A stretch of 59,438 nucleotides of DNA from an uncultured Alphaproteobacteria bacterium (lineage in GTDB: Bacteria > Pseudomonadota > Alphaproteobacteria > Rhodobacterales > Rhodobacteraceae). The DNA lies in contig CACJUU010000012.1 of the NCBI GenBank assembly GCA_902596605.1, forward strand, positions 1 to 59,438, in the 5' to 3' direction. How positions within the stretch are numbered: the first letter of the stretch is position 1; each line of letters opens with the position of its first letter. A model generated the notes under the pieces. That model was not told where the DNA came from. It worked only from the letters and a program-made list of their open reading frames with translations, and searched no databases. Shown one piece after another: positions 3 to 38,158 of the stretch. The position numbers and the translations under genes are program-made.

Positions 3-671
3 ATGAAATTATCAATTATTGGAGGAACTGGGCCTCAGGGTAAAGGTCTTGCCGTTAGATTTGCTAAGGCAGGTTTTGAAGTTGCTTTGGGATCACGTGA
101 TGAATCCAGAGCTATCGAAGTTGCAGATAGTCTAACATCAAAAAATCAAAACCTCGTGGGGTCAATAACTGGGCTCTCGAATAGCGAAGCAGTAGCATTC
201 ACCGACAAGTTTGTAATATTTTCAGTACCTTGGAGTGGTCACAACAACACACTTTCTGAAATGAAAGGAATGCTAGCGGATAAGGTACTTGTTGACATAG
301 TAGTTCCATTGGAAGACGGAAACCCCAGAAAAGTAGCTATGCCCCCTGAAGGCTCAGCTACAGAAGCAGCCCAAGCCATATTAGGGCCTGACATACCAGT
401 AGTTGGAGCCCTCCATAATGTTTCCGCGAATACACTTAATCACCTAGAGAAAAAAATTAATTGTGATATCTTGGTATGTGGAAACAATTTGGATGCTAGG
501 TTAGATACTATAGAGTTGTTAAAAAACTTAGAAGTCGAAGCTTACAATGCTGGTGATGCAACATCAGCGAGATGTTTAGAGGCTATAACGCCAGTATTGA
601 TCAGAATAAATATGTCTAAAGCGGTGCCTTTTTCACATGCTGGAATAAAAATTTGGCCACCGGAGGAATAA
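3..671 (+). CDS. npdG: NADPH-dependent F420 reductase (F420H2:NADP oxidoreductase)
   Basis: This 222-residue protein should transfer hydride between NADP(H) and the deazaflavin F420 in the cytoplasm. It opens with a dinucleotide-binding strand and a [10 protein letters not shown] loop at residues 7-16, followed by GSRD at 30-33, the NADP 2'-phosphate-contacting motif typical of this family, and a VPW motif near residue 75. The length matches the family. The start lies two bases into the window, so its ribosome site is not visible. The next gene is an F420-type oxidoreductase 14 bases downstream, which strongly supports an F420 rather than a ketopantoate or proline-reductase role. Direction in the cell is inferred: it probably makes F420H2 from NADPH for the neighbour. 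Confidence 0.85.
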
Positions 672-685
672 AAAAGGAGGAAGAT

Positions 686-1687
686 ATGGAATTTGCAATT
701 TGTTTTAAAGGGTTTGTTCAACCAGATCGAGCGAAAGCCCTAGTTAGATTGGCTGAAAGCGCTGGATTCACATATTGTTGGTTCTACGATAGCCATATCC
801 TTTGGAGAGAAAGCTTTGCTCAAATGGCTATGTGTATGGAACACACAAAAAAAATGCGGTTTGGACCATGTGTAACCAATCCCAACACTAGAGACTGGTC
901 TTTAGCGGCATCAATGTTTGGCTCACTAGCTCTACAATCGAATGGACGATTTGATATCGGTGTTGGAAGAGGAGACAGCGCCGTTCGCGTAATGGGAAAG
1001 AAGCCTGCGAACCTAGCACGAATGGAAGAATTTATTTTAAAAGTAAAGGCAATGGTTAAGGGGGAAGAAGTCCAGTATGGTGATGTCCCCAACCCAATTC
1101 AATTTCCATGGGCAGAAGGATATGATTTGCCAGTCTGGGTAGCTGCATATGGGCCAAAGGCTCTTACATCCGCAGGAAAAGTTGGAGATGGTTTGGTGCT
1201 TCAAATTGCTTCTCCAACCGTTTGCAAATGGCTAAGAGATCAAGCGGTGAAAGCAGGAGAAGAACACGGACGTGATATGTCAGACTACAAGGTAATGGTG
1301 GCCGCACCTGCTTACTTTGGAGACAGAGCAGAAAGTATTGAGAAAGTGAAGTGGTTTCCCGCGATGGTTGGAAATCACGTAGCTGACATAGTTGAGAAGT
1401 ATGGTGAAGATAATAAAGACATTCCCAATAGCCTTACGGATTATATCAAAGATCGTCGCGGCTATGATTACTCTAAACATGGCCAGAGCGACAATCCCTA
1501 TTTAGAATTTATCACAGATGAAATAGTTGAAGAATTTTGTGTTTTAGGAACCGCTGATCAACATGTAAAAAAACTTAAAACATTAAAAGATCTCGGAGTA
1601 ACCCAATTCAATATTTATCTGGATAGCGGAGACGAAGAGAGAATTATCGCAGAATATGGCGAAAATGTTATACCAGCTTTTTCATAA
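686..1687 (+). CDS. LLM-class F420-dependent oxidoreductase (CPS_4043-like)
   Basis: A 333-residue luciferase-like (LLM) TIM-barrel oxidoreductase. I place the start at the ATG at 686 because an AGGAGG ribosome site lies about six bases upstream; a longer reading from 653 would overlap npdG. The sequence has the family's N-terminal barrel strand (FAICFKGFV), the FGPCVTNP strand, and the GVGRGDSAVR segment that binds the cofactor phosphate. It most resembles the F420-dependent group first named from Colwellia CPS_4043, which is known from genomes but not, as far as I know, characterised. Partnership with npdG, dihydropyrimidinase and ureidopropionase suggests it reduces a pyrimidine-like ring or acts on a related heterocycle; the substrate is inference. 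Confidence 0.8.
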   Translation: MEFAICFKGFVQPDRAKALVRLAESAGFTYCWFYDSHILWRESFAQMAMCMEHTKKMRFGPCVTNPNTRDWSLAASMFGSLALQSNGRFDIGVGRGDSAVRVMGKKPANLARMEEFILKVKAMVKGEEVQYGDVPNPIQFPWAEGYDLPVWVAAYGPKALTSAGKVGDGLVLQIASPTVCKWLRDQAVKAGEEHGRDMSDYKVMVAAPAYFGDRAESIEKVKWFPAMVGNHVADIVEKYGEDNKDIPNSLTDYIKDRRGYDYSKHGQSDNPYLEFITDEIVEEFCVLGTADQHVKKLKTLKDLGVTQFNIYLDSGDEERIIAEYGENVIPAFS

Positions 1688-1785
1688 GAAGCCTCAGTTA
1701 TTGTAAAACAGACTTTTCTCCGTTACTTAGCTGTAAAAACAGCATCACAAATATAACTTGGGGAATGTTTTAGGTTAATTAGCTC

Positions 1786-2697
1786 TTGAAAAAAAAAATA
1801 TCAGTAGAGACATCAGAGGTTTGGGGACACGGGGCAATGCTTCTTTTCTCCCTTTGTGTATCGGTTTCTTACATTTTAGGTGCGATGGTTGCAAATGATA
1901 TAGAACCAGGAGCCATAACAGCAGCAAGGTTTTTGATAGGGGCAAGTGTAATGGGAACATTATTATATATCTCAAAAAAACTAAAGAAAGAGGACTTTAA
2001 AAAACCATGGCGATTTCTCATTCTCGGATTAAGCATAGTTATCTATTTTGTCTTAATGTTCGAAGCGCTAAAAACAGCTTCTTCTCTATCACTGGCTGTA
2101 GTTTTTACGCTCACCCCTTTTATTGCACTTTTTTTTGAATATTTTTTAAACAAAAAAGTGACACTCAAGGCGTTTGTCGCGATTTCTCTTGGAGCAATTG
2201 GAGCAATTTGGGTAATTTTCGAAGGCAATCTAGGAAACCTTATAGCATTTCGAATAGGCTATGGCGAACTACTTTTTTTTTGGGGGTGTGTTGGACACGC
2301 TCTATATGCTATTTTAATCCCTGTTCTCAACAAAGGAGAAAATGCAGCGACGCAAACACTAGGAACTTTAAGTGCTGGATTCCTACTACTCATATTAATG
2401 TTTACTAGTGACGTTGTAGAAACAAATTGGCTCAGCTTATCTCCATTGATTTGGATAACTATAATTTACTTGGCAACATTTGCGACAGCTTTTACTTTTT
2501 TCTTAATTCAGTTTGCAGCAAAAAAAATCAGTGCTTCAAAAGTAATGGCCTACACCTATGCTGTTCCCTTTTGGGTGGCACTAGGAGAGATAATTATTAA
2601 CTCAAGCTTTCCAAATGCAAACATAATTTTTGGAGGCTTTATAATTGCCTTTGCATTATTAATGCTAATTAGTGATAATACAAAGGCGAAGATATAA
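1786..2697 (+). CDS. EamA/DMT-family membrane transporter
   Basis: A 303-residue protein with about ten hydrophobic segments arranged as two EamA repeats, typical of the drug/metabolite transporter superfamily. Such proteins usually export small metabolites or amino-acid-like compounds across the inner membrane. The start used is TTG, giving a KKK-rich N-terminus and the EVWGHGAML segment that commonly precedes helix 1; an internal ATG at 1837 would remove that segment. No strong ribosome site is visible. It sits between the F420 oxidoreductase and the amidohydrolase gene in the same direction, so it probably moves a substrate or by-product of the pathway, but specificity cannot be read from sequence. 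Confidence 0.8.
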   Translation: MKKKISVETSEVWGHGAMLLFSLCVSVSYILGAMVANDIEPGAITAARFLIGASVMGTLLYISKKLKKEDFKKPWRFLILGLSIVIYFVLMFEALKTASSLSLAVVFTLTPFIALFFEYFLNKKVTLKAFVAISLGAIGAIWVIFEGNLGNLIAFRIGYGELLFFWGCVGHALYAILIPVLNKGENAATQTLGTLSAGFLLLILMFTSDVVETNWLSLSPLIWITIIYLATFATAFTFFLIQFAAKKISASKVMAYTYAVPFWVALGEIIINSSFPNANIIFGGFIIAFALLMLISDNTKAKI

Positions 2698-2716
2698 AAT
2701 TTATTAAGAGGATCGA

Positions 2717-3964
2717 ATGTCAACACCAGCAGCTAATTTAAAAATAAATTCATCTCGTCTTTGGGACTCCCTAATGGAGATGGCAAAAATAGGTCCCGGT
2801 GTCGCAGGTGGAAACAACAGACAAACACTCACAGACGAAGACGCAGAAGGACGAGTGTTGTTTCAAAAGTGGTGTGATAAAGAAAATTTGGAAATGGGTG
2901 TTGACAAAATGGGAACAATGTTCGCTAGACGTGAAGGAACAGACCCAAATGCTTTACCTGTTTACGTTGGAAGCCATCTTGATACCCAGCCAACTGGCGG
3001 TAAGTATGATGGAGTTTTAGGAGTTCTGGGTGGGTTGGAAATAATAAGAACACTCAATGAACTTGATATAAAAACAAAGCACCCAATTGTTGTCGTAAAT
3101 TTTACAAATGAAGAGGGAACTCGCTTTGCTCCTCCAATGATGGCATCGGGAGTTTTTGCAGGAATACATGATCTCCAATGGGCTTATGATAGAAAGGATG
3201 CAGCTGGAAAAACGTTTGGAGAAGAAATCAAGCGCATCGGATGGATTGGTGACGAAGAAGTAGGGTCACGAAAAATGCATGCTTTTTTCGAACTCCACAT
3301 AGAGCAAGGGCCAATATTAGAAGCTGAAAATAAAGATATTGGCGTTGTGACCCATGGACAAGGCCTAAATTGGATACAAGTAACACTTAATGGTCGAGAA
3401 AGTCATACGGGATCAACCCCTATGCCGATGCGTAAAAATGCTGGTCTAGGTATGGCTAGGATTACAGAGCTTGTTCAAGAGATCGCTATGAGCCACCAAC
3501 CATCCGCAGTTGGTGGAATAGGTCAATGCGATGTGTTTCCTAATAGTAGAAACATAATACCTGGTAAAGTGGTGTTTACTATAGATTTTAGATCTCCATC
3601 GTTTGACGTCCAAGATGATATGGAAAAACGTTTGTATGAAGGAGCTAAAAAAATTGCTTCTGATTTGGAATTGACTGTGGAATTTGAAAAGGTTGGGCAT
3701 TTTGACCCCGTGACTTTTGATGAAGGATGTGTAGACAAAGTTAGAAGAGCCGCTGAAAGACTAGGGTACTCACATAAAAATATTATATCGGGAGCAGGAC
3801 ATGACGCGTGTTGGATTAATAAAGTTGCACCAACGGCTATGATAATGTGCCCGTGCGTCGACGGTTTGAGCCACAATGAGGCAGAAGAGATATCCGAAAA
3901 GTGGGCTTCAGCAGGTACAGATGTTTTATTGCATGCAGTATTAGAAGCTGCAGAAATAGTTTAA
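2717..3964 (+). CDS. Zn-dependent N-carbamoyl amidohydrolase (beta-ureidopropionase-like, M20 family)
   Basis: A 415-residue M20-type metallohydrolase of the group containing beta-ureidopropionase, N-carbamoyl-L-amino acid hydrolase and allantoate amidohydrolase. Zinc-ligand motifs are present: GSHLDT at 85-90, the following D98, NEEG at 131-134, HIEQG at 194-198, GHDA near 364, and a C-terminal SHNEAE histidine. It would open the N-carbamoyl product of dihydropyrimidinase to an amino acid, CO2 and ammonia. The dihydropyrimidinase gene follows 13 bases later, which favours N-carbamoyl-beta-amino acids as substrates over allantoate. A GAGGATCG stretch just before the ATG serves as ribosome site. 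Confidence 0.85.
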   Translation: MSTPAANLKINSSRLWDSLMEMAKIGPGVAGGNNRQTLTDEDAEGRVLFQKWCDKENLEMGVDKMGTMFARREGTDPNALPVYVGSHLDTQPTGGKYDGVLGVLGGLEIIRTLNELDIKTKHPIVVVNFTNEEGTRFAPPMMASGVFAGIHDLQWAYDRKDAAGKTFGEEIKRIGWIGDEEVGSRKMHAFFELHIEQGPILEAENKDIGVVTHGQGLNWIQVTLNGRESHTGSTPMPMRKNAGLGMARITELVQEIAMSHQPSAVGGIGQCDVFPNSRNIIPGKVVFTIDFRSPSFDVQDDMEKRLYEGAKKIASDLELTVEFEKVGHFDPVTFDEGCVDKVRRAAERLGYSHKNIISGAGHDACWINKVAPTAMIMCPCVDGLSHNEAEEISEKWASAGTDVLLHAVLEAAEIV

Positions 3965-3977
3965 TCGGGAGGGTAAA

Positions 3978-5438
3978 ATGACAAAAGTAATAAAAGGTGG
4001 AACCATTGTAACAGCTGACAGAGAGTGGAAAGCCGACGTGTTAATAGAAAATGAAAAAATTAAGCAGATTGGGGAAAATCTAAAAGGGGATGAAACCATT
4101 GACGCCGAAGGCGCTTACGTGATCCCCGGTGGAATAGACCCACATACACACCTTGAGATGCCATTTATGGGAACCACTGCCGCTGAGACTTTTGAAACAG
4201 GCACCTGGGCAGCCGCAGTCGGCGGAACAACGATGTTAGTAGACTTCTGTCTTCCAGGAGAGGATGGCAGCTTGGTTAATGCGGTAAAGGAGTGGCATAG
4301 AAAATCAGAGCCTCAAATTTGTTCTGACATTGGTTATCACATGGCTGTTACCGGTTGGTCTGAACAGATTTTTGATGATATGCCAAAGGTAGTTGATATG
4401 GGAGTGAATTCCTTCAAGCATTTTATGGCTTATAAAGGAGCCCTAATGATTGAAGATGATGAAATGTTTGCATCTTTTAAAAGATGTGCCGCTATCGGTG
4501 CTCTGCCAATGGTTCATGCAGAAAATGGTGATATTGTCGCCGAGCTTCAACAAAAATATCTTCAAGACGGAGTAACTGGTCCTGAGGGGCATGCATACTC
4601 TAGACCGCCAGAGGTAGAAGGTGAAGCAGCTAATAGAGCAATAATGATAGCAGATGCCGCAGGAGTACCATTGTATGTTGTTCACGTATCTTGTGAGCAG
4701 GCCCATGAAGCAATTAGAAGAGCTAGGCAAAAAGGTATGAGAGTTTTTGGTGAGCCCCTTATTCAATTTCTGACCCTAGATGAGAGCGAGTACTTTAATA
4801 AAGATTGGGAACATGCCGCTAGACGGGTGATGTCGCCTCCCTTTAGAGACAAATCGCATCAGGACGGATTATGGGCTGGTCTGCAGTCTGGGTCTCTGCA
4901 AGTTGTCGCTACAGACCATGCCGCGTTTTCAACGGAACAAAAAAGAATGGGAGTAAATGACTTCACGAAGATTCCGAATGGTAGTAACGGGCTTGAGGAA
5001 AGGTTATCAGTTCTTTGGACAGAGGGCGTAGAAACCGGGCGTCTAACCCGACAAGAGTTTGTTGCAATTACTTCAAGTAATATTGCTAAAATTCTTAATA
5101 TTTATCCAAAAAAAGGAGCTATTTTAGAAGGCGCAGATGCAGACATTGTTGTTTGGGACCCAAAGATTTCTAAAACAATTTCGACAAGTACCCACAAATC
5201 AATTTTAGACTACAATGTTTTCGAAGGTTTCAAAGTCACAGCACAACCGAGATACACGTTATCAAGAGGCGATGTCATTTGGGCATGGGGTAAAAACTCT
5301 AGTCCTCAACCAGGAAGAGGTAGATTTGTCCCAAGACCTGCGTTCCCAGCGTTACATAGTGCTGTCTCAAAATGGAAGGCGCTTAATACACCTAGGAAAA
5401 TCGAACGAGACCCTTTAAATATACCATCTGGCATCTAA
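3978..5438 (+). CDS. Dihydropyrimidinase / hydantoinase
   Basis: A 486-residue cyclic amidohydrolase that hydrolyses dihydropyrimidines or 5-substituted hydantoins to N-carbamoyl amino acids. It shows the metal-binding DPHTH motif (H56, H58), a FMAYKG segment whose lysine (about K153) is the expected carboxylated bridging residue, H180 in VHAEN, the VVHVS histidine, and the ATDHA aspartate near 318. Length and C-terminal region match the D-hydantoinase/dihydropyrimidinase family. It has a GGGAGGG ribosome site 13 bases after the preceding stop and is followed within six bases by the ABC transporter ATPase, so all are probably co-transcribed. Confidence 0.9.
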   Translation: MTKVIKGGTIVTADREWKADVLIENEKIKQIGENLKGDETIDAEGAYVIPGGIDPHTHLEMPFMGTTAAETFETGTWAAAVGGTTMLVDFCLPGEDGSLVNAVKEWHRKSEPQICSDIGYHMAVTGWSEQIFDDMPKVVDMGVNSFKHFMAYKGALMIEDDEMFASFKRCAAIGALPMVHAENGDIVAELQQKYLQDGVTGPEGHAYSRPPEVEGEAANRAIMIADAAGVPLYVVHVSCEQAHEAIRRARQKGMRVFGEPLIQFLTLDESEYFNKDWEHAARRVMSPPFRDKSHQDGLWAGLQSGSLQVVATDHAAFSTEQKRMGVNDFTKIPNGSNGLEERLSVLWTEGVETGRLTRQEFVAITSSNIAKILNIYPKKGAILEGADADIVVWDPKISKTISTSTHKSILDYNVFEGFKVTAQPRYTLSRGDVIWAWGKNSSPQPGRGRFVPRPAFPALHSAVSKWKALNTPRKIERDPLNIPSGI

Positions 5439-5444
5439 TAAAAA

Positions 5445-6236
5445 ATGACGGATAAAATAATTTCAGCAAAAAATGTTGAATTAAAGTTCGGAAGAGGTTC
5501 AGAGGAAGTTGTTGCCCTTAAAAACATTTCGTTAGAAGTGGGCGCAGGTGAATTTGTATCTTTTATCGGACCCTCAGGTTGTGGAAAGACGACATTTTTG
5601 AGAACTGTTGCAGCTTTAGAGAAACCTACCTCGGGACACATATTAGTGAATGGAGTTTCGCCAGATGAGGCAAGAACCAATAGAGCATATGGCTATGTCT
5701 TTCAATCAGCAGGTCTTTATCCATGGAGGAACATATCTAAAAATGTAAGTTTACCATTGGAAATCATGAATTACAGCAGAGAAGAAATTTCGAAAAGGGT
5801 AAGTGAGTCACTGAATTTAGTAGAATTAAATGGCTTCGAAAAGAAATTTCCATGGCAGTTATCTGGTGGAATGCAACAAAGAGCTTCTATTGCTAGAGCC
5901 TTATCTTTTGATGCCGATCTGCTTCTTATGGATGAACCGTTTGGCGCATTAGATGAAATAGTAAGAGATCACCTAAATGAACAACTATTGGATCTTTGGC
6001 AAAAAACTGGTAAGACAATCTGCTTTGTAACGCATTCAATCCCTGAAGCTGTGTTTCTATCAACAAAAATTGTAGTAATGTCGCCTAGGCCAGGGAGAAT
6101 TGTGGATGTTATTAAGAGTCCATTTCCTTCTTCTCGTTCGTTAGAAATAAGAGACAGTAAAGAATTTATATCAATTTCGCAGAGAGTAAGAGAGGGGTTA
6201 CGTTCTGGGTATGACTACAATGAGAATAAGGGCTAA
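5445..6236 (+). CDS. ABC transporter ATP-binding protein (SsuB/TauB type)
   Basis: A 263-residue ABC ATPase of the nitrate/sulfonate/taurine/pyrimidine importer class. Walker A GPSGCGKTT is at 42-50, the Q-loop glutamine at 87, signature LSGGMQQ at 139-145, Walker B LLMDEP about 160-165, and the switch histidine in FVTHS follows. It energises the two permeases encoded immediately downstream; its end overlaps the first permease gene by 26 bases, indicating tight translational coupling. Position just after dihydropyrimidinase suggests import of a pyrimidine, hydantoin or related ureide. Confidence 0.92.
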   Translation: MTDKIISAKNVELKFGRGSEEVVALKNISLEVGAGEFVSFIGPSGCGKTTFLRTVAALEKPTSGHILVNGVSPDEARTNRAYGYVFQSAGLYPWRNISKNVSLPLEIMNYSREEISKRVSESLNLVELNGFEKKFPWQLSGGMQQRASIARALSFDADLLLMDEPFGALDEIVRDHLNEQLLDLWQKTGKTICFVTHSIPEAVFLSTKIVVMSPRPGRIVDVIKSPFPSSRSLEIRDSKEFISISQRVREGLRSGYDYNENKG

Positions 6237-7128
6237 GAAGTTTTTGAAGACAATTGCTGAAAAAATTTTACCAATTTTAACTATTCTATTTTTACTAACT
6301 GTAGTTTGGTATTTTTTTACTATTTATTTAAATTCAGCTATGCAAATAGATAAGTATAACAAGCAGGGCATTTCATGGAATATTTCAAAACTTGTGCTAG
6401 ACACAATGTCTCAAGAGAGACCGAAATTGCCAGCACCACATCAAATAGCGGAAGAAATTTGGAAAACAACAGTTGAAAAAAAGATTACCTCAAAAAGGTC
6501 ATTGATTTATCACGGTTCGATTACGTTGTCCTCTACCATTGTTGGTTTTATGCTGGGGACTGTATTAGGAGTTGTGCTAGCAGTAAGCATAGTAGAAAAC
6601 CGAGCAATGGAGAGTTCCTTGATGCCTTGGATAATAGCAAGTCAAACAATTCCCATATTGGCTATTGCTCCAATGATTATCGTAGTATTGAATTCATTGG
6701 GTTTTTCTGGCCTTCTTCCGAAAGCACTGATATCCACTTACCTAAGTTTTTTTCCTATTGTTGTTGGTATGGTGAAAGGTCTTAGAAGCCCTGATATTAT
6801 ATTGGTAGATTTAATGAAAACTTATAATAGTTCAAAAGTTGACATATTTTTTAAATTACGACTACCAGCATCGGTACCATTTCTTTTTACATCGATGAAA
6901 GTAGCAATAGCAATATCGCTTGTCGGCGCGATCGTCGGAGAACTTCCGACAGGAGCAGTAGCAGGTCTTGGGGCACGCCTTTTAACTGGATCGTATTATG
7001 GTCAGACAATCCAAATTTGGTCCGCGTTAATAATGGCATCAATTTTGGCAGCTACTCTCGTTTTTTCCATTCAAGCAATCGGATATTTAGTATCAAAAAA
7101 AATGGGCTATACTAATGAAGAAGCTTAG
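6211..7128 (+). CDS. ABC transporter permease (SsuC/ThiX-like) 1
   Basis: A 305-residue inner-membrane permease with an N-terminal helix, a periplasmic stretch of roughly 80 residues and then the usual bundle of helices. The EAA-type cytoplasmic loop that docks to the ATPase is seen as the region around MKTYNSSKVDIFFKLRLPAS. The gene overlaps both the ATPase before it and the second permease after it (14 bases). Two ATGs, at 6211 and 6220, are possible starts. Having two different permease genes implies a heterodimeric channel, seen in several pyrimidine-type NMT1 importers. Confidence 0.88.
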   Translation: MTTMRIRAKKFLKTIAEKILPILTILFLLTVVWYFFTIYLNSAMQIDKYNKQGISWNISKLVLDTMSQERPKLPAPHQIAEEIWKTTVEKKITSKRSLIYHGSITLSSTIVGFMLGTVLGVVLAVSIVENRAMESSLMPWIIASQTIPILAIAPMIIVVLNSLGFSGLLPKALISTYLSFFPIVVGMVKGLRSPDIILVDLMKTYNSSKVDIFFKLRLPASVPFLFTSMKVAIAISLVGAIVGELPTGAVAGLGARLLTGSYYGQTIQIWSALIMASILAATLVFSIQAIGYLVSKKMGYTNEEA

Positions 7129-8209
7129 CAATATTTTATTAACTTTTGCTCTATTTTTTTCAGCCATGTGCTTCGTCAGCTCTACTATTTCATTTTCAGA
7201 GTCAAACATCATTGTTTTGATACTTTCTATTGTCGGAATTTTATTAGGCCTTAGACTTTTTTTTCCTTTTTTTGCATCTTTTTATTACGATTTATTTATT
7301 GGCGTAGCCACAATAATATTTGTTATTCTAAATCTACATGAAGATCTTCCAATTGGAAGTTGGCCTCTTATCTTCTCTTCTTGGTTGTATAGCTGGCTTG
7401 CAGTTGAAAAAATAATGCAAAAACAATTTGAGACTGATTATTCAAGTACCATAAGAAACTTTGTAGCCCCCATTTTTTTTGGTGTGTGGATAATTTTTTT
7501 CTGGGAGGTGGCTACTGTGGGGCTAAAAATTCCAGTTGTGATATTACCTTCTCCCAGCGTAATTGGTATCAAATTTATTGCTTCTCTAGATATATTGTGG
7601 GCAGACTTTATTCAAACTTTTGTAAAATCCGCTTTAATTGGCTATTTGATAGGTTGTAGCAGTGGGCTTCTCATTGCTATTTTGATCGATAGCTCTCCTT
7701 TTTTGAAGCGAGGCTTATTACCTATAGGGAATTTTATTTCAGCATTGCCTATTATTGGAGTGGCACCAATTATGGTTATGTGGTTTGGTTTTGATTGGGA
7801 GTCTAAGGCAGCGGTAGTTGTGATAATGACTTTTTTCCCGATGCTTGTAAATACAATAACGGGTTTGAGCATTAGCAGTCAAATTGAGAAAGATCTAATG
7901 AAGACATATGGGGCGTCATATTCGCAAACTTTATTTTTTTTACGGCTTCATGGAGCTGCTCCCTTTATATTCAATGCGCTTAAAATAAATTCCACACTTG
8001 CATTAATAGGAGCAATTGTAGCTGAGTTTTTTGGAACACCGATTGTCGGGGTAGGGTTCAGAATATCAACTGAGGTGGGAAGAATGAACTTAGATATGGT
8101 TTGGGCTGAAATAACTGTTGCGGCGCTAGTCGGCACTATTACCTATGGAATAATAACTTTTATTGAAAAAAGGTTAACATTCTGGCATCCTTCAATAAGA
8201 GGGAATTAA
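7115..8209 (+). CDS. ABC transporter permease (SsuC/ThiX-like) 2
   Basis: A 364-residue permease. The first 110 residues form about four extra hydrophobic helices before the standard BPD permease domain, so it is longer than most SsuC-type proteins. The EAA loop (LMKTYGASYSQTLFFLRLHG) lies near residue 270 and closely parallels that of the preceding permease, showing they are paralogous partners. It begins inside the end of the previous gene and is followed 18 bases later by the binding-protein gene. The role of the extra N-terminal helices is unknown. Confidence 0.88.
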   Translation: MKKLSNILLTFALFFSAMCFVSSTISFSESNIIVLILSIVGILLGLRLFFPFFASFYYDLFIGVATIIFVILNLHEDLPIGSWPLIFSSWLYSWLAVEKIMQKQFETDYSSTIRNFVAPIFFGVWIIFFWEVATVGLKIPVVILPSPSVIGIKFIASLDILWADFIQTFVKSALIGYLIGCSSGLLIAILIDSSPFLKRGLLPIGNFISALPIIGVAPIMVMWFGFDWESKAAVVVIMTFFPMLVNTITGLSISSQIEKDLMKTYGASYSQTLFFLRLHGAAPFIFNALKINSTLALIGAIVAEFFGTPIVGVGFRISTEVGRMNLDMVWAEITVAALVGTITYGIITFIEKRLTFWHPSIRGN

Positions 8210-8227
8210 AACATAAGGAGAAAGTAT

Positions 8228-9220
8228 ATGAAAAAAGTTTTAGGAGGCCTTTTAGGTGCATTGCTTTTAGCTTTAAGTAGCATCACTGCAAATGCAGCTG
8301 ACAAGCTCACGTTACAACTTCAGTGGGTAACTCAGGCACAGTTTGCCGGATATTACGTAGCTAAAGACAAAGGTTACTATGCTGACGAAGATTTAGACGT
8401 AACTATTAAGCCTGGTGGTCCCGATATCGCACCTCCACAGGTGCTCGCAGGTGGTGGTGCAGATTTAATGCTTAATTGGATGCCCTCAGCGCTAGCAGCG
8501 AGAGAAAAAGGCGTTCCAATTGTAAACATTGCTCAGCCATTTAAGTCTTCAGGTTTACAGCTTACCTGCAGAAAAGAGACTGGAATTAAATCACCTGCAG
8601 ATTTCCGAGGAAAAACAATAGGAGTATGGTTTTTTGGTAATGAATATCCATTCCTATCATGGATGAGCCAGCTAGGGATTCCTACAAACGGAGGATCTGA
8701 CGGCGTTACGATCCTAAAGCAAGGCTTTAACGTTGACCCAATCTTGCAAAAACAAGCCGATTGCATTTCTACGATGACTTACAATGAATATTGGCAGGTC
8801 ATTGATGCTGGCTTAACACCAGATGATCTCGTTGTTTTTAAGTATCAGGACCAGGGAGTAGCTACTCTAGAAGATGGTATTTACGTTCTTGAAGATCGGT
8901 TAAAGGATGCAAGTTTTAAAGATCAAATGGTACGATTTGTAAGAGCTTCTATGAAGGGTTGGAAGTGGGCAGAGAGTAACCCAGACGGGGCTGCTGAAAT
9001 AGTCTTAGATAATGACGCTACCGGTGCGCAAACCGAGAAACACCAGAAGAGGATGATGGGCGAAATTGCAAAGCTTACAGCTGGGTCAAATGGCGCACTT
9101 GAACCTGCCGATTTTGACAGAACAGTGGCAACACTTCTTAAGGGAGGGTCCGATCCTGTTATAACTAAAAAGCCAGTTGGCGCATGGACTCACGAGATTA
9201 CGGATGCTGCATTAAAATAG
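8228..9220 (+). CDS. ABC transporter substrate-binding protein (NMT1/THI5-like)
   Basis: A 330-residue periplasmic binding protein with a clear signal peptide ending at ANAADK near residue 24. The mature start LTLQLQWVTQAQFAGYY is the hallmark of the NMT1/THI5-like family that binds pyrimidines, riboflavin precursors or similar flat heterocycles. An AAGGAG ribosome site precedes the ATG. It is the last gene before a strong terminator and would be expected to be the most abundant product of the importer. The fold family fits the dihydropyrimidinase context; the exact ligand cannot be deduced. Confidence 0.9.
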   Translation: MKKVLGGLLGALLLALSSITANAADKLTLQLQWVTQAQFAGYYVAKDKGYYADEDLDVTIKPGGPDIAPPQVLAGGGADLMLNWMPSALAAREKGVPIVNIAQPFKSSGLQLTCRKETGIKSPADFRGKTIGVWFFGNEYPFLSWMSQLGIPTNGGSDGVTILKQGFNVDPILQKQADCISTMTYNEYWQVIDAGLTPDDLVVFKYQDQGVATLEDGIYVLEDRLKDASFKDQMVRFVRASMKGWKWAESNPDGAAEIVLDNDATGAQTEKHQKRMMGEIAKLTAGSNGALEPADFDRTVATLLKGGSDPVITKKPVGAWTHEITDAALK

Positions 9221-9240
9221 ATCCAAACTAATATTTAGTA

Positions 9241-9272
9241 AAAAGGGCAGAAACAATAGTCTGCCCTTTTTT
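9241..9272 (+). terminator. Rho-independent terminator after the importer genes
   Basis: An 11-bp perfect inverted repeat (AAAAGGGCAGA at 9241-9251 and its complement at 9260-9270) with an eight-base loop is followed by further T residues. It lies 20 bases after the binding-protein stop and 15 bases before the aminotransferase start, so the downstream genes depend on read-through or their own promoter. Confidence 0.9.
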
Positions 9273-9287
9273 CAAATGAAGAAATAA

Positions 9288-10571
9288 ATGAATAAAAATA
9301 TATCCCTCAAAGAATGGCAAAGCAGAGCACAGAAGGTTCTTCCAGGTGCAGGTTTTGGCAATTTTGATCCTAGCATCAGTCTAAAAAGAGGTTTGGGTTC
9401 GCGCGTATGGGATGAAGACAACAAAGAATATATCGATTTTTTAATCGGTTCAGGGCCAATGATACTGGGCCATGGAAATGAAGAAGTATTGGATGCTATA
9501 CGGGCCCAACTCGGTGAAGGTCTTACTTTTTTTACCAATAATTCAAAAGGAATAGAGTTAGCTGAAGAAATTTGTAACGCAGTGAAATGTGCCGATCAGA
9601 TTAGATTTGTAAGCTCTGGTGGTGAAGCTGATATGTATGCGATGCGATTGGCAAGAGCACATACAGGTAGAAATAAAATCCTCAAGTTTGAGGGAGGGTA
9701 TCATGGGATGAGTGGGGACTCATTGATGAGTCTTGCACCTAGCAAAATGGTAAATTTTCCATTAGCAGTGCCGGATTCAGCGGGAATACCTGAAGCCGTT
9801 AGAGATGATATCTTGGTCGCACCATTCAACGATCCTCAAGTCGCTACGGAAATAATGAATGAGTATTCAGATCAAATTGCTGGTGTAATTGTAGAACCAC
9901 TTCAAAGAATCATTCCGCCAATAAAAGGATTTTTAGAGCATCTAAGGGCTGAAACAAAAAGAATTGGAGCGCTTTTGATTTTTGACGAAATAGTAACTGG
10001 TTTTAGGTTGGCCTACGGCGGTGCACAAGAGCTGTACGGCGTAGTGCCTGATTTATGCACGCTTGGGAAGATCATTGGAGGTGGCTTACCTCTGGCGGCT
10101 ATTGCCGGTGAAAAAGAAATTATGAATCATTTTGATAAAAATATTGTTGGCGAGGAAAAGTTTACTTTCCAAATCGGTACCCTTAGTGGAAACCCATTGG
10201 CAGCAGTAGCTGGTTTAAAAACGATGGAGATACTTAGAAGAGATGGTGCTTATGACAGGATAAGAGAAAACGGGCAGTTTTTAATCGATAGCATTACAAA
10301 ACATCTTAAGAGTAATAATATAGAGTTTCAAATTGTTGGTGATCCAACACTCTTCGATATAATTTTTTCTGAAACACCGGTTATTAATTACCGAGATACA
10401 AAGAAAAATAAGGCTGAATATTCAAAAACTTTCAATCAAATAGTTAGAGAACACGGAATACTCAAAGCCGATGCCAAACTTTATACACACCTTGCGCTTA
10501 CCGAAGAAGATCTTCAGAAAACTGATAGCGCATTTAAAAAAGCGGCTGAGGGCATTGCAGCAATATCCTAG
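9288..10571 (+). CDS. Class III PLP-dependent aminotransferase (omega-transaminase / glutamate-semialdehyde aminomutase-like)
   Basis: A 427-residue class III PLP enzyme. It has the SSGGEADMYAMRLAR segment that binds PLP phosphate, the FDEIVTGFR motif near residue 230, and the lysine in LGKIIGGGLPL that forms the Schiff base. Overall it resembles glutamate-1-semialdehyde aminomutase-like transaminases. After pyrimidine breakdown, an enzyme of this class would move the amino group from beta-alanine or beta-aminoisobutyrate to a keto acid; that assignment is inference from context. It starts 15 bases after a terminator and is followed closely by a second PLP enzyme. Confidence 0.85.
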   Translation: MNKNISLKEWQSRAQKVLPGAGFGNFDPSISLKRGLGSRVWDEDNKEYIDFLIGSGPMILGHGNEEVLDAIRAQLGEGLTFFTNNSKGIELAEEICNAVKCADQIRFVSSGGEADMYAMRLARAHTGRNKILKFEGGYHGMSGDSLMSLAPSKMVNFPLAVPDSAGIPEAVRDDILVAPFNDPQVATEIMNEYSDQIAGVIVEPLQRIIPPIKGFLEHLRAETKRIGALLIFDEIVTGFRLAYGGAQELYGVVPDLCTLGKIIGGGLPLAAIAGEKEIMNHFDKNIVGEEKFTFQIGTLSGNPLAAVAGLKTMEILRRDGAYDRIRENGQFLIDSITKHLKSNNIEFQIVGDPTLFDIIFSETPVINYRDTKKNKAEYSKTFNQIVREHGILKADAKLYTHLALTEEDLQKTDSAFKKAAEGIAAIS

Positions 10572-10586
10572 TTTAAACAAGAACAC

Positions 10587-11720
10587 ATGATCCCTTGCCA
10601 AAGACATCTTTTTGATATTCCTGAAGACGTTGCATATTTAAACACCGCATACATGTCCCCCCTTTTGAACAGCGTCGTCACTGCCATAGATAGCGGAAGC
10701 CGTTTAAAAGCCAATCCATGGAAACTTAAGATAAGCAACTTTTTTGATGATATAGAAGAGGCTCGAAATTTATTTTCAGACCTTATGCATACAGTTGGAA
10801 CCAATATAGCTATCATTCCCTCTGCTTCTTATGGTGTTCAAACTGCTGCAAAAAATTTACAAATTTCAGAGGGCTCAAAAATACTTGTTCTATCTGATCA
10901 GTTTCCATCTAATGTCTATCCATGGCGACGTGTCGCTGAACAAAAAGGTGCTGAGATCAAAACTGTAAAAGTCCCTGATAGTGAGGCGGCTACAGATCAT
11001 ATAATCGACGCTTTAGATGAACGGGTTAGCGTTTGCGCAACGGCAAATGTATTATGGACCAATGGGTCATTAATAGATTTAGAAAAAGTGAAAGCAAAAT
11101 GCTTGGAATGTAAAACCGAACTTGTTATTGACCTTACCCAATCGGCAGGCGCTTTTGATATAGACCTAAGTAAAATAGATCCTGCTTTTGCAATTGTAGC
11201 AAATTATAAGTGGATGCTTGGCCCCTACTCAACTGGATTTCTTTATGTTTCCCCTAAATTCCATAATGGCGAGCCACTTGAAGAAGGTTGGATAACAAGA
11301 AAAAACAGTAAGGATTTTGCAAATCTCGTCGATTACCAGGATTATTATGAACCTGGAGCAATCAGGTATGATATGGGGCAAAGATCAAATTTTTCTCTTA
11401 TTCCCGGTGTGCTAGAGGCACTCCGTCAAATACAGAAATGGGGTATACCCAACATTCAAAACACTCTCTATAACTCTAATCTAAATCTCTGTAAAAAGCT
11501 AAGCGATTTGGGGTTGCAAGTTCCAAGACCTGAAAATAGAGGACCTCATTTTATAGGTGCAAAACTACCTTATAAAGCTCCGAAAAACATTCTTGAAACT
11601 TTGGCAGAAAACAAAATATTTGTCTCTGAGAGAGGTGGCAATTTAAGAATTACACCTCACTTATGGAACAATTCTAACGACTTTGAGCGATTTATAGAAA
11701 TCTTGAAACAAACATTATGA
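10587..11720 (+). CDS. Class V PLP-dependent aminotransferase family protein
   Basis: A 377-residue fold-type I PLP enzyme of the class V (cysteine desulfurase/isopenicillin N epimerase-like) group. Features are the early VAYLNTAYMSP segment, the IDLTQSAG aspartate that contacts the PLP nitrogen near residue 182, and the Schiff-base lysine at about 208 in ANYKWMLGPY. It lacks an obvious cysteine-containing loop for desulfurase activity. The gene starts 15 bases after the class III aminotransferase and ends the plus-strand locus. Substrate unknown; aminotransferase, lyase or epimerase are all possible. Confidence 0.8.
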   Translation: MIPCQRHLFDIPEDVAYLNTAYMSPLLNSVVTAIDSGSRLKANPWKLKISNFFDDIEEARNLFSDLMHTVGTNIAIIPSASYGVQTAAKNLQISEGSKILVLSDQFPSNVYPWRRVAEQKGAEIKTVKVPDSEAATDHIIDALDERVSVCATANVLWTNGSLIDLEKVKAKCLECKTELVIDLTQSAGAFDIDLSKIDPAFAIVANYKWMLGPYSTGFLYVSPKFHNGEPLEEGWITRKNSKDFANLVDYQDYYEPGAIRYDMGQRSNFSLIPGVLEALRQIQKWGIPNIQNTLYNSNLNLCKKLSDLGLQVPRPENRGPHFIGAKLPYKAPKNILETLAENKIFVSERGGNLRITPHLWNNSNDFERFIEILKQTL

Positions 11721-20852: not shown

Positions 20853-22127
20853 ATGACTGATTTATTAGTAAAAAACTGCTTGTTATTTGAAAAAAAAGAC
20901 CCTCAAGACATTTTAATTAAGGGAGGAATTATTAAAGACATAGCATCAAAAATTACAGCGGATAATATTCCCATCATAGACGCCGATTTTCACTTTGTTA
21001 CTCCCCCATTTGTTGACAGTCACTTTCATATGGATGCAACACTAAGCTATGGCCTTCCCCGCATGAATAAAAGTGGCACTTTACTTGAAGGCATCAAATT
21101 ATGGGGAGAATTGAAACCAAATCTCACTGCTGATGCTATAAAGGAACGAGCCTTGAAGTTCTGCAGGTGGGCGATAGCTAGGGGAACTTTAGCAATTCGA
21201 AGTCATGTCGATGTCTCTGGTCAAAATCTAGTAGGTGTTGAAGCACTCCTAGATGTCAGAGAAACAATGAAAGATTTTATTGATATACAATTGGTTGCTT
21301 TTCCACAAGATGGATTACTCAGAGCCAATTGTTTGGACAATTTGAATGCAGCTCTGGACATGGGAGTTGATGTCGTTGGTGGAATCCCTCACTTTGAAAG
21401 AACAATGGAGGAGGGTCATGAGTCCATTCGTATACTGTGTGAGGTTGCCGAAAAGCGTGGACTTCTTACAGATTTACATTGTGATGAAACAGATGACCCA
21501 ATGTCAAGGCATGTTGAGAAGGTTGCATTGGAAACTACTAGACTTGGTCTTAAGGGACGTGTAGCGGGTTCTCACCTGACCTCTATGCATTCAATAGATA
21601 ATTACTATTTCACAAAACTTATCTCGTTGCTTGTTGAGGCTGATCTAAATATTATAGCTAACCCCTTAATTAATATAACAATACAAGGAAGGCAAGATAC
21701 TTACCCTAAGAGAAGAGGATTAACTAGAATACCAGAGCAACTCAATGCAGGCCTTAAGGTCGCATTTGGACATGATTGCGTTATGGATCCTTGGTATCCA
21801 CTAGGCTCCCATGATATGCTCGAGGTTGCGCACATGGCTTTACACTGCTGTCATATGACTGGCATTGATGAGATGAAATCATGCTTCGATGCAGTGACGG
21901 CAAATGCGGCCTCCATACTTCATTTAGATAATTATGGTATAAATAAGGGATCAAATGGAGATTTGGTAGTTTTGCAATGTAAAGACCCCATAGAGGCCAT
22001 AAGACTTAAGCCAGCAAGGCTATTTGTTGTTAGACGTGGAAAAGTTATCAGCACTACTAGTCCAGTACACTATGAACTAAACTTAGGCTCAAACACAGAG
22101 AGCGAAGATTTGCTTTTTGAAGGCTAA
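20853..22127 (+). CDS. Cytosine deaminase-type amidohydrolase
   Basis: A 424-residue amidohydrolase of the cytosine deaminase/CodA group, which deaminates cytosine or related pyrimidines and triazines. The metal motif DSHFHMD (H57, H59) is near the N-terminus. IRSHVDVSG, DLHCDETDDP (catalytic His and Glu), GSHLTSMHS and the FGHDCVMDPWYPLG aspartate segment follow in the family order. A GGGAGG ribosome site precedes the ATG. It follows the scar of an ABC transporter that probably once delivered its substrate. Confidence 0.85.
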   Translation: MTDLLVKNCLLFEKKDPQDILIKGGIIKDIASKITADNIPIIDADFHFVTPPFVDSHFHMDATLSYGLPRMNKSGTLLEGIKLWGELKPNLTADAIKERALKFCRWAIARGTLAIRSHVDVSGQNLVGVEALLDVRETMKDFIDIQLVAFPQDGLLRANCLDNLNAALDMGVDVVGGIPHFERTMEEGHESIRILCEVAEKRGLLTDLHCDETDDPMSRHVEKVALETTRLGLKGRVAGSHLTSMHSIDNYYFTKLISLLVEADLNIIANPLINITIQGRQDTYPKRRGLTRIPEQLNAGLKVAFGHDCVMDPWYPLGSHDMLEVAHMALHCCHMTGIDEMKSCFDAVTANAASILHLDNYGINKGSNGDLVVLQCKDPIEAIRLKPARLFVVRRGKVISTTSPVHYELNLGSNTESEDLLFEG

Positions 22128-35020: not shown

Positions 35021-35629
35021 ATGGTGAAAGCGATGGATGAGAAAAGATTGAGAGAGATTTACGGCCCAACTAAGGAAAAAGCTGCAGCTAAAATTTTAGA
35101 CAGATTAGATAAACACTGTGTAAGTTTTATTGAAAACTCATCCTTCGTTATTATTGGAACACTAAATAATCAAAGCATTGACCTATCGCCAAAAGGAGAT
35201 CCCTATGGTTTTGTAAAGGTTATAGGTCAACATCTTTTGGAAATTCCAGATAGGCCGGGCAACAACCGCATAGATGGACTATTAAATATTGTTAGAAATA
35301 ATTTTATTTCTCTTTTGTTTTTAATCCCCAGCGTAAACGAAACATTGAGAGTGCAGGGCGAAGCTTCAATAAGTGAAGATATGGTTACTAGAGAAAGACA
35401 CAAATTAAAAAATAATGTCCCCAAAACAGTTCTGCAAGTGAAAGTTACGCAAGCCCACTTACATTGCGGAAAATCAATGTTAAGAGGAGGCTTATGGGAT
35501 CCGAGAAAGTGGCCTGGAAAACGCCCAATACCAACACTTTTTGAAATGATAGAGGATCAGACCGGTATTGATTGCGAAATAAAGGATGAGCAGGAGATAT
35601 TAGCACAGTATAAAAAAGAGTTGTACTGA
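35021..35629 (+). CDS. PPOX-class flavoprotein (pyridoxamine 5'-phosphate oxidase-like)
   Basis: A 202-residue split-barrel flavin protein of the MSMEG_1061-like PPOX group. Signature segments are SSFVIIGTLNNQSIDLSPKGD, LLEIPDRPGNNRIDGLLNI and VTQAHLHCGKSMLRGGLWDP. Members bind FMN or, in some branches, F420. Its place about 100 bases before the cofG-cofH-cofC genes hints at an F420 connection, but that is inference. A start at the internal ATG at 35033 is also possible. Confidence 0.75.
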   Translation: MVKAMDEKRLREIYGPTKEKAAAKILDRLDKHCVSFIENSSFVIIGTLNNQSIDLSPKGDPYGFVKVIGQHLLEIPDRPGNNRIDGLLNIVRNNFISLLFLIPSVNETLRVQGEASISEDMVTRERHKLKNNVPKTVLQVKVTQAHLHCGKSMLRGGLWDPRKWPGKRPIPTLFEMIEDQTGIDCEIKDEQEILAQYKKELY

Positions 35630-35728
35630 GGTTTAAATTCAGACTTTTGTTTAATCGATGTAAATTGTTATATTATTGCCCTTTGTTATTAACCGTGTCA
35701 TAATTTAATTTATATTTTGGGGGGGAAA

Positions 35729-36907
35729 ATGACGGGGCTGTCAACTCATCTTAACGACAGAGATTTGTGGAAAATAGATAAGGATGAAGTTGCCTTCTAC
35801 GGACATATGGTCCTTAATGGTTCTTTAGAAAAACTTATAGATGCCGCATCGAGTAAGCGAGACGAACATTGGGGTAATGTAATTAGTTACTCCAGAAAAA
35901 TTTTTGTCCCCTTAACAAATATGTGCAGAGACACTTGCAATTACTGCACTTTTGTAAAACATCCAGATGATCCAGATGCGAAAATAATGTCCCCCCAAGA
36001 GGTTCTGTTATCTGCTCGCGAAGGAGAGAAAAAGGGGTGTAAGGAGTTGTTATTTAGTTTAGGAGAAAAACCTGAAAAAAGGTATGCTAAACCAAAGCGT
36101 GCCCTAGAAGCTCTAGGCTATGAAGCAATGACAGACTATCTAACTGATATGTGTAAATTGGTTTTAGAAAAAACATCACTTCTGCCTCATGTAAATGCAG
36201 GAACACTTAACGAGTATGAAATTGTGAAGCTTAAAAATGTATGTGCATCAATGGGAATGATGCTTGAAACCACCAGTAAAAGATTAACCCAAAAAGGAGG
36301 TCCTCATTATGCATGTCCCGATAAAGTTCCAATCCAAAGAATAAGAACTTTAATTTCGGCTGGTTATTGTCAGGTGCCGTTTACCACAGGTATTCTTATA
36401 GGCATAGGGGAAACCCTTGAAGAAAGGATTGAGGCTCTTCTATTGATAGAAAAGATCAATAACAGGTATGGACATATACAAGAGGTAATTATCCAAAATT
36501 TCCAAACGAAACCTAACATCCAAATGTCAAAGCACCCAGAGCCCAAATTAGAAGAAATGCTACAAACTATTGCCTTGGCCAGAGTTATTTTAAATCCTGC
36601 GATCAGCATACAAGCACCCCCAAATTTAGAGAAAAAGCACTTAGAGTATGTATATGCAGGAATAAATGATTGGGGTGGGATTTCTCCGGTTACTCGAGAC
36701 TTTATCAACCCTCAACACCCTTGGCCTAATATTAATTCGCTTGAGACCATGATGAATGAAATAGGATTTCGTCTAATGGAACGACTTACTGTTTATCCAA
36801 AATTTAATACACAAAATTTCTTATCCACCACTATTAGAAGCCATATGTTGAAACATTCTGCTTACCTTCATCCTGACAATAAGCTAAAGGAATTAGAAAC
36901 GGTATGA
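35729..36907 (+). CDS. cofG: FO synthase subunit 1 (7,8-didemethyl-8-hydroxy-5-deazariboflavin synthase)
   Basis: A 392-residue radical-SAM enzyme. NMCRDTCNYCTFVKHPDDPD contains the CX3CX2C iron-sulfur motif that identifies CofG, the subunit that completes the deazaflavin ring of FO from tyrosine and 5-amino-6-ribitylamino-uracil with CofH. The start at ATG 35729 follows a run of seven G acting as ribosome site; the TTG reading from 35717 would contain it. Its last codons overlap cofH by four bases (ATGA). Bacteria outside actinobacteria usually carry split CofG/CofH, as here, instead of a fused FbiC. Confidence 0.95.
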   Translation: MTGLSTHLNDRDLWKIDKDEVAFYGHMVLNGSLEKLIDAASSKRDEHWGNVISYSRKIFVPLTNMCRDTCNYCTFVKHPDDPDAKIMSPQEVLLSAREGEKKGCKELLFSLGEKPEKRYAKPKRALEALGYEAMTDYLTDMCKLVLEKTSLLPHVNAGTLNEYEIVKLKNVCASMGMMLETTSKRLTQKGGPHYACPDKVPIQRIRTLISAGYCQVPFTTGILIGIGETLEERIEALLLIEKINNRYGHIQEVIIQNFQTKPNIQMSKHPEPKLEEMLQTIALARVILNPAISIQAPPNLEKKHLEYVYAGINDWGGISPVTRDFINPQHPWPNINSLETMMNEIGFRLMERLTVYPKFNTQNFLSTTIRSHMLKHSAYLHPDNKLKELETV

Positions 36908-38142: not shown

Positions 38143-38158
38143 TCGAGGCTCTATTTGC

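Follow-up and report, generated by a model that had tools for sequence, protein, structure and literature searches.

A candidate F420-dependent uracil/thymine reductase in the place of PreT-PreA in a pyrimidine degradation operon of an uncultured alphaproteobacterium

Introduction

Which enzyme takes the first step of reductive pyrimidine degradation when the genes for the later steps stand not behind PreT-PreA but behind two genes of the F420 world? The question is raised by a 59,438-nucleotide stretch of DNA from an uncultured marine alphaproteobacterium of the family Rhodobacteraceae (GenBank contig CACJUU010000012.1; hereafter the window), which forms one contig, C12, of a 1.97 Mb assembly that is 84% complete. 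At its start, genes for an NADPH-dependent F420 reductase (NpdG) and an LLM-class oxidoreductase of the family TIGR03842 (here simply LLM) precede those for a ureidopropionase-like hydrolase and a dihydropyrimidinase. The reading that we favor, at a probability of roughly 0.85, is that this operon serves reductive pyrimidine degradation (Pyd) with an F420-dependent first enzyme, LLM acting as an F420H2-dependent uracil/thymine reductase and NpdG-LLM replacing PreT-PreA (PydA).

Dihydropyrimidine dehydrogenases that use NAD(P)H or ferredoxin are described in the accessible text of PMC7332683. The role of F420 in Gram-negative producers was called unknown in 2022, according to the available part of that paper (PMC8764529), and a 2026 paper, in the part available, cites a role of 3PG-F420 in fungal symbiosis (PMC13367373). 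No account of pyrimidine degradation driven by F420 came up in the open literature searched, which for the most part did not extend to subscription papers and bioRxiv.

NpdG-LLM stands in the place of PreT-PreA

For comparison we used five PreA loci that were picked by hand and are not a random draw. G154 and G022 are genomes from the family of the window itself, and in them PreT-PreA is followed, after spacers of 1.4 kb and 2.5 kb, respectively, by genes for an M20 enzyme, a dihydropyrimidinase, an ATPase, two permeases and an NMT1-domain protein, and the same order follows PreT-PreA in G117, G222 and a Leisingera genome (G397), with spacers between 1.1 and 3.4 kb. The window has this set of six genes, in unchanged order, behind NpdG-LLM and an EamA gene, and identities between G154 and the window are 83% for the dihydropyrimidinase, 78% for the M20 enzyme and 76% for the NMT1 protein. 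A search of related genomes had been proposed in an earlier note on this DNA, and the same operon with PreTA that it brought to light (in G154, G022 and others) speaks for LLM as the reductase. The arrangement LLM-M20-dihydropyrimidinase-ATPase-permease-permease-NMT1, with EamA allowed between, recurs among the 124 loci tested in L050, L204, L205 and L020-L026, the last being close sisters that we counted as one case.

A dihydropyrimidinase tree of 56 rows, built by a quick method, places the window's protein as sister to the PreA-linked proteins of G154 and G117 (SH-aLRT 100, 84% identity). Rows labelled as LLM-linked interleave with PreA-linked rows in that tree, and eight of the ten rows linked to neither form an outside group; the genome of L238, which is among these ten, has PreA elsewhere, and the labels of L232 (Leisingera) and L234 (Limimaricola), which lie on other draft contigs than LLM, follow the model of the Leisingera plasmid L017. 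From the mixing in the tree, together with the shared gene order, we conclude that it is the reductase that differs around the same hydrolases; judged by sequence, the hydrolases and importer of the window are orthologous to those of the PreA operons.

The usual dihydropyrimidine dehydrogenase, which the earlier note had reported as absent from this locus, did not turn up on a wider search either: no PreA match was obtained in the window's assembly (E 1e-40), nor in the sister genome G385. The sole DHO_dh match in the assembly is a single frame of 360 amino acids on contig C10, which is taken to be PyrD. Because PydA (PreA/PreT) was not found, we class the operon as a Pyd-like variant, distinct from the standard Pyd operon.

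The likeness to the reductive Pyd/PreTA operon thus extends to the dihydropyrimidinase, the N-carbamoyl-β-alanine amidohydrolase, the ATP-binding cassette (ABC) importer and the gene order, with orthologues in the same bacterial family. The difference lies in the swap of PreT-PreA, an NAD(P)H-dependent system with FAD, FMN and iron–sulfur (Fe-S) clusters, for NpdG-LLM, a smaller and unrelated one without Fe-S clusters in which electrons would pass from NADPH to F420 and on to the substrate. An alternative electron donor within a Pyd cluster has a parallel in PydAc, the ferredoxin-dependent dihydropyrimidine dehydrogenase of Clostridium chromiireducens, which the available text describes as a PydA homologue without the FAD domain (PMC7332683), whereas LLM has an unrelated fold. 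What appears to be new here is the usual pyrimidine-breakdown gene set with its first enzyme exchanged for one that runs on F420, a rare cofactor.

Gene content of the operon and proposed pathway

Positions 3-11720 hold eleven tightly spaced genes, all on the + strand, with intergenic gaps of -26 to +98 bp. Family searches bore out every component named in the earlier note: NpdG (3-671; TIGR01915, 170.5 bits, cut-off 149.8), LLM (686-1687; TIGR03842, 504.2 bits, cut-off 295.45), a ureidopropionase-like hydrolase, a dihydropyrimidinase, an NMT1-type importer and a class III aminotransferase. The program-made open reading frame list starts LLM at the TTG at 653, but the likely start is the ATG at 686, which has a GGAGGA stretch in front of it. 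The hydrolase is an M20 enzyme of the hydantoinase/carbamoylase amidase type (2717-3964; TIGR01879, 391.2 bits, cut-off 204), whose nearest solved relatives (8apz, 8aq0, 8c46) are N-carbamoyl-L-amino-acid and N-carbamoyl-β-alanine amidohydrolases; its assignment to the β-ureidopropionase step is made at the level of the family. For the dihydropyrimidinase (PydB; 3978-5438; TIGR02033, 590.7 bits, cut-off 393.25), the nearest solved relatives are 4tqt, named a D-hydantoinase, and 3dc8, named a dihydropyrimidinase.

The importer comprises an ATPase (5445-6236; best NCBIfam match the taurine-type ATPase NF008421 at 216 bits, below its cut-off of 357), two permeases (6211-7128 and 7115-8209; PF00528, 82.3 and 76.1 bits) and an NMT1-domain substrate-binding protein (8228-9220; PF09084, 140 bits), which is probably a pyrimidine binder and has the formylaminopyrimidine-binding protein 3ix1 as its nearest solved relative. 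The class III aminotransferase (9288-10571; PF00202, 195.9 bits) resembles GSA-aminomutases at 372.9 bits, under the cut-off of 398, and is probably a β-amino-acid transaminase. Beyond what the earlier note had listed, the operon holds an EamA/DMT-type transporter (1786-2697; PF00892, 83.6 bits) and a class V aminotransferase-fold protein (10587-11720; PF00266, 82.3 bits), the latter with no NCBIfam match at E 1e-20. Scans for promoters and terminators gave results no better than those from shuffled sequence.

In the pathway that we propose, the ABC importer would take up a pyrimidine base, and a cytosine deaminase encoded further along the window (20853-22127, + strand; NF005748, 704.5 bits, cut-off 438) would feed the breakdown by turning cytosine into uracil. 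NpdG would reduce F420 with electrons from NADPH, and LLM would bind the resulting F420H2 and pass its hydride to uracil or thymine to give the 5,6-dihydro ring. Dihydropyrimidinase would then open this ring to N-carbamoyl-β-alanine or the β-aminoisobutyrate analogue, from which the M20 enzyme would strip CO2 and ammonia by decarbamoylation, and the class III aminotransferase would convert the β-amino acid into a semialdehyde, the flow presumably running in this direction.

PreA is usually absent where LLM is present

We searched 50 genomes that carry TIGR03842 by selection, namely G000 and 49 from our set of 80 named loci, chosen for diversity, and scored PreA as NF006183 with a cut-off of 335 bits. 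TIGR02033 dihydropyrimidinase is present in 48 of the 50 and PreA, above cut-off, in seven; in three more, PreA matches of 142-149 bits fall far under the cut-off. Paracoccus denitrificans DSM 413 is one of the strains that gave no PreA match. A draw of 240 alphaproteobacterial genomes contained dihydropyrimidinase in 65 and PreA in 37. Within its LLM-negative genomes, PreA accompanies dihydropyrimidinase in 34/63 at the family cut-off and in 32/34 when the dihydropyrimidinase scores at least 572 bits, a threshold picked after the scores had been seen. Against 7/48 LLM genomes these proportions give Fisher p values of 2e-5 and 1e-13, respectively, which serve as a guide only because kinship was ignored and the LLM set includes other classes. 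In a further set of 34 Chloroflexota and five alphaproteobacterial LLM genomes, PreA exceeds the cut-off in 1/39 (G491).

LLM is linked to dihydropyrimidinase in several groups of bacteria

In the class to which the window belongs, TIGR03842 occurs in 6/385 genomes, counting G000, and it occurs in 34/201 genomes of the phylum of the Anaerolineaceae bacterium L096, here called Chloroflexota. Some of the 34 Chloroflexota loci are short and lie at contig ends; a dihydropyrimidinase of more than 150 bits lies within 10 kb of LLM in 31 of them and within 5 kb in 30. They also carry a CN-hydrolase (27/34), a class III aminotransferase (20/34) and an NMT1 protein or NCS1 permease (21/34). The CN-hydrolase finds its best match in N-carbamoylputrescine amidase, under that family's cut-off, so its ureidopropionase role is a tentative one. 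Six of these loci (L172-L175, L177 and L178) hold a near-complete pathway of NCS1 permease, LLM, CN-hydrolase, dihydropyrimidinase, aldehyde dehydrogenase and aminotransferase, and the aldehyde dehydrogenase of L173 is a methylmalonate-semialdehyde dehydrogenase (TIGR01722, 625.8 bits, cut-off 448.5).

The 80 named loci are mostly from Pseudomonadota, and their 10 kb flanks are often cut by contig ends. Dihydropyrimidinase-like genes were seen in 32 of them (26 above 150 bits; L028 and L029, just 30% identical, are probably other amidohydrolases), M20 enzymes in 33, NCS1 permeases in 21, CofE-like genes in 64, NpdG in 52 and cytosine deaminase in four. The Leisingera plasmid L017 combines an NCS1 nucleobase symporter, dihydropyrimidinase, an M20 enzyme, an AptA-type ω-aminotransferase and the transhydrogenase PntAB with an adjoining cofGHDCE-npdG-LLM, which suggests that PntAB might supply NADPH to NpdG. 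In the Streptomyces locus L018, the one record that represents the Actinobacteria, a CN-hydrolase, an aminotransferase, dihydropyrimidinase and LLM are clustered. The link between LLM and dihydropyrimidinase, recurring in Pseudomonadota, Chloroflexota and this Streptomyces record, exceeds chance.

The LLM protein resembles F420 enzymes and is unlikely to be a Mer

By score LLM is a full member of TIGR03842 (F420_CPS_4043), an entry of the type hypoth_equivalog to which NCBIfam 20.0 gives no function. An AlphaFold2 model of the protein (mean pLDDT 92.1) was compared with the PDB by Foldseek. F420 enzymes (Mer, FGD2, Adf and FGD1) make up all but one of the 15 best matches, the exception being a bacterial luciferase at rank 14. 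The best match is Mer, the F420-dependent methylene-tetrahydromethanopterin reductase, with F420 (8qpl, TM score 0.78), which is also the closest solved relative by sequence. This fold, as modelled, and the linkage to cof genes and npdG suggest that LLM binds and uses F420.

LLM itself was rejected as a Mer. Its scores against the Mer families (125.4 and 116.3 bits) are far under their cut-offs (276 or 348.7), and the position of Mer Glu6, a catalytic residue named from the E6Q mutant 8qq8, is C, T or V in 40/40 aligned rows, so that LLM is unlikely to be a Mer. Invariant in the same 40 rows are W223, F224, N230, H231, P247, R257, Y260, Y262 and H265, and the aligned Mer sequences show no corresponding motif in this conserved 223-265 stretch. 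We propose that the stretch forms the pyrimidine pocket.

Membership in the LLM superfamily would also fit a RutA-like flavin-dependent pyrimidine oxygenase in place of an F420 reductase, since RutA belongs to this superfamily and acts on uracil. RutA is not, however, among the 21 NCBIfam families that LLM matches at E 0.001, and the best folds are those of F420 enzymes, with Mer first. The surroundings argue against it as well: npdG lies immediately upstream, F420 genes lie near LLM in many of the named loci, no gene of the operon was annotated as a Rut component in general family searches, and a downstream dihydropyrimidinase does not match the Rut product. RutA (TIGR03612) exceeds its cut-off in one of the 50 LLM genomes (Poseidonocella), one more match of 223 bits falling under it; in the genome of the window it is without a match at E 1e-60. 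On the family matches and this search of LLM genomes we rejected the oxygenase, which we regard as the least probable of the alternatives, very nearly negligible.

Exceptions, and the possibility of chance placement

Several observations weigh against LLM as the pyrimidine reductase, or against its generality. The PreA-positive genomes among the 50 are those of three Leisingera, two Limimaricola, Trinickia mobilis and Devosia psychrophila, so LLM is not always the sole reductase; Leisingera and Limimaricola hold PreA, LLM and two dihydropyrimidinases, one of which is close to PreA on its contig. Five of the 34 Chloroflexota LLM genomes (L176, G464, G491, G564 and G588) contain a PreA-like FMN part of 288-310 bits, and both PreA and LLM are lacking from two of the 36 alphaproteobacterial genomes whose dihydropyrimidinase scores high. 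No dihydropyrimidinase was seen in the 10 kb flank of 48/80 named loci, some flanks being cut by contig ends, nor near LLM in Devosia and Pelagibacterium, and Roseisalinus and Thioglobus are the two of the 50 genomes without a TIGR02033 match. In Devosia crocina a putative ABC importer for F420-0 (L085:13017-15868; TIGR03868 and TIGR03869 above cut-off, TIGR03873 below) is encoded close to LLM, with no dihydropyrimidinase seen within 10 kb. Several TIGR03842 copies were found in the related alphaproteobacteria G196 and G289 (loci L010-L015 and L206-L208), and the stretches fetched for them contain no dihydropyrimidinase. The 1.6 Mb genome of Thioglobus MED-G25 (L093) has a TIGR03842 LLM, with no TIGR02033 or CofE match; either this bin is incomplete or the enzyme is used otherwise. 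Given these counter-examples, not every TIGR03842 protein need reduce pyrimidines, and the copies of G196 and G289 may point to other substrates within the family.

A further point of this kind concerns the supply of F420. As the earlier note had said, F420 biosynthesis genes lie in the same window (35717-38812), namely those for the chromophore synthesis proteins CofG (35717-36907, + strand; TIGR03550, 456.9 bits, cut-off 213.35) and CofH (36904-38142, + strand; TIGR03551, 485.4 bits, cut-off 374.1) and for the side-chain guanylyltransferase CofC (38159-38812, + strand; TIGR03552, 125.8 bits, cut-off 105). Neither cofD nor cofE was seen within the window, and CofE found no match anywhere in the incomplete assembly. 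In the near relatives L020-L026, uncultured alphaproteobacterial genomes whose LLM is 97-100% identical, the same operon has cofD-cofE immediately upstream of npdG, and the window's contig begins at npdG, that is, where these relatives carry the pair. We attribute the missing CofE to the assembly gap from which the contig starts.

The Devosia LLM beside its putative F420-0 importer and the TIGR03842 copies of G196 and G289, none of them near a dihydropyrimidinase in the stretches at hand, would suit an explanation in which NpdG and LLM serve some other F420 function, for example as a C1 or stress reductase, and adjoin the hydrolases merely at the insertion site of an F420 cassette. Most LLM-dihydropyrimidinase clusters of the Chloroflexota, however, lack cof genes (CofE is nearby in only 4/34), so that the link is no by-product of an F420 cassette. 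A quick-method LLM tree of 105 rows splits into two deep groups, and dihydropyrimidinase-linked members are found in both. PreA is mostly missing where LLM is present, and the residues at the Mer Glu6 position make a Mer unlikely. Chance placement beside an F420 cassette was rejected on the Chloroflexota loci and the LLM tree, and we hold this explanation to be most improbable.

Uracil and thymine are the favored substrates

The earlier note had LLM reduce uracil, thymine or a similar ring with F420H2. The notion of an F420H2-dependent ring reducer is supported by the operon exchange and the absence of PreA, and the reduction step itself is what we infer from them; among the possible substrates, uracil and thymine are favored over hydantoin and other ureides. 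This preference follows from the orthology of the hydrolases and importer with genes of the PreA operons and from the nucleobase symporter, cytosine deaminase or methylmalonate-semialdehyde dehydrogenase carried by other LLM loci.

LLM might instead reduce a related ring, such as a modified pyrimidine or nucleoside, an unsaturated hydantoin or a purine-derived compound such as yanthine, the shared hydrolases then opening the product. Hydantoinase-type enzymes are promiscuous, and Leisingera has both LLM and a PreA cluster, a hint that the two may differ in substrate or in the conditions of use. One of the two nearest precedents is SSGG-03002/NpsU of mureidomycin and napsamycin producers, a putative F420/FMN-dependent oxidoreductase for which the accessible text gives C5-C6 reduction of the uracil moiety of mureidomycins in the cell, by genetics and nuclear magnetic resonance, with in vitro activity undetected (PMC10714638). 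By analogy it makes F420 chemistry on a uracil ring plausible; compared with TIGR03842 by description only, it differs in serving antibiotic biosynthesis, in its few homologues and in its putative cofactor (PMC10714638).

The other is found in a 2025 paper on uric acid which, in the part available, predicts an F420-dependent luciferase-family yanthine reductase adjoining SsnA in Chloroflexota (PMC12507026). Both that proposal and ours are predictions of a luciferase-family F420 enzyme that reduces a uracil-like ring beside a hydantoinase. The yanthine reductase, however, belongs to a uric-acid cluster with SsnA (PMC12507026), and tblastn with E. coli ssnA, xdhD, xdhA, ygfK, ygeX and ygeW gave no match of at least 55 bits in our 34 Chloroflexota loci; against the 80 named loci the same queries gave scattered matches only, of 24-29% identity. 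The operon genes of the window belong to other families than those of the reductive uric acid pathway. As the surroundings of LLM in these 34 loci yielded neither SsnA nor XdhD nor any other of the uric-acid genes searched for, we take the yanthine reductase to be a sister idea and not the same cluster, and a uric-acid/yanthine cluster was rejected for these loci (SsnA, XdhD, YgeX and YgeW). Together with the orthology to PreA operons and the accompanying genes, which indicate uracil or thymine, these results make a related ring an unlikely substrate, if the likeliest of the alternatives to a uracil/thymine reductase.

Implications for TIGR03842 and for F420 in Gram-negative bacteria

Were LLM the uracil/thymine reductase, a reaction would be assigned to a widespread F420 family so far without function, and a purpose given for F420 in many Gram-negative bacteria. 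F420H2 would join NAD(P)H and ferredoxin as a donor for reductive pyrimidine breakdown, by way of an unrelated and much simpler enzyme, and annotation would shift, in that genomes scored Pyd-negative for want of PydA may possess the pathway. We lean, with distinctly less assurance than for the operon itself, towards the wider view that TIGR03842 is a new class of Fe-S-free, single-polypeptide F420H2 dihydropyrimidine dehydrogenases that displaced PreTA more than once, and that Pseudomonadota (for example Paracoccus denitrificans, Marinomonas, Halomonas and Pseudovibrio) retain cofGHDCE-npdG chiefly for the breakdown of pyrimidines, a portable function.

Further observations

Directly before cofG, at 35021-35629, lies a PPOX flavoprotein gene of the MSMEG_1061 family (TIGR04025, 211.7 bits, cut-off 170), whose product is possibly another F420-linked enzyme. 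The importer genes of the window (5445-9220) are 58-71% identical in the sister genomes L021, L022, L023, L025 and L026, with flanking genes on both sides at 87-99%, and L020 and L024 have the window's version. By its sequence pattern this difference looks like an exchanged cassette, which may alter the substrate range.

Among the Chloroflexota, a PreA-like FMN-domain protein is encoded beside the same LLM cluster at L176:5300-6600, and such proteins are possibly a second reductase in some LLM genomes of this phylum. The importer genes of Devosia crocina raise the prospect that Devosia-type bacteria may import an F420 precursor for their LLM enzyme. Locus L033, labelled Nocardioides marinus, has F420 genes that are 84-94% identical to those of Leisingera (CofC 67%); the record is probably mislabelled or contaminated and was excluded from the genome searches. 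On the Caballeronia plasmid pSBC2-6 (L019:10001-10384) only the 3' third of LLM is matched. Behind it come genes for an M20 hydrolase, an alanine dehydrogenase and a PntB-type protein, and the locus looks like the decayed remains of an LLM cluster of the kind described above.

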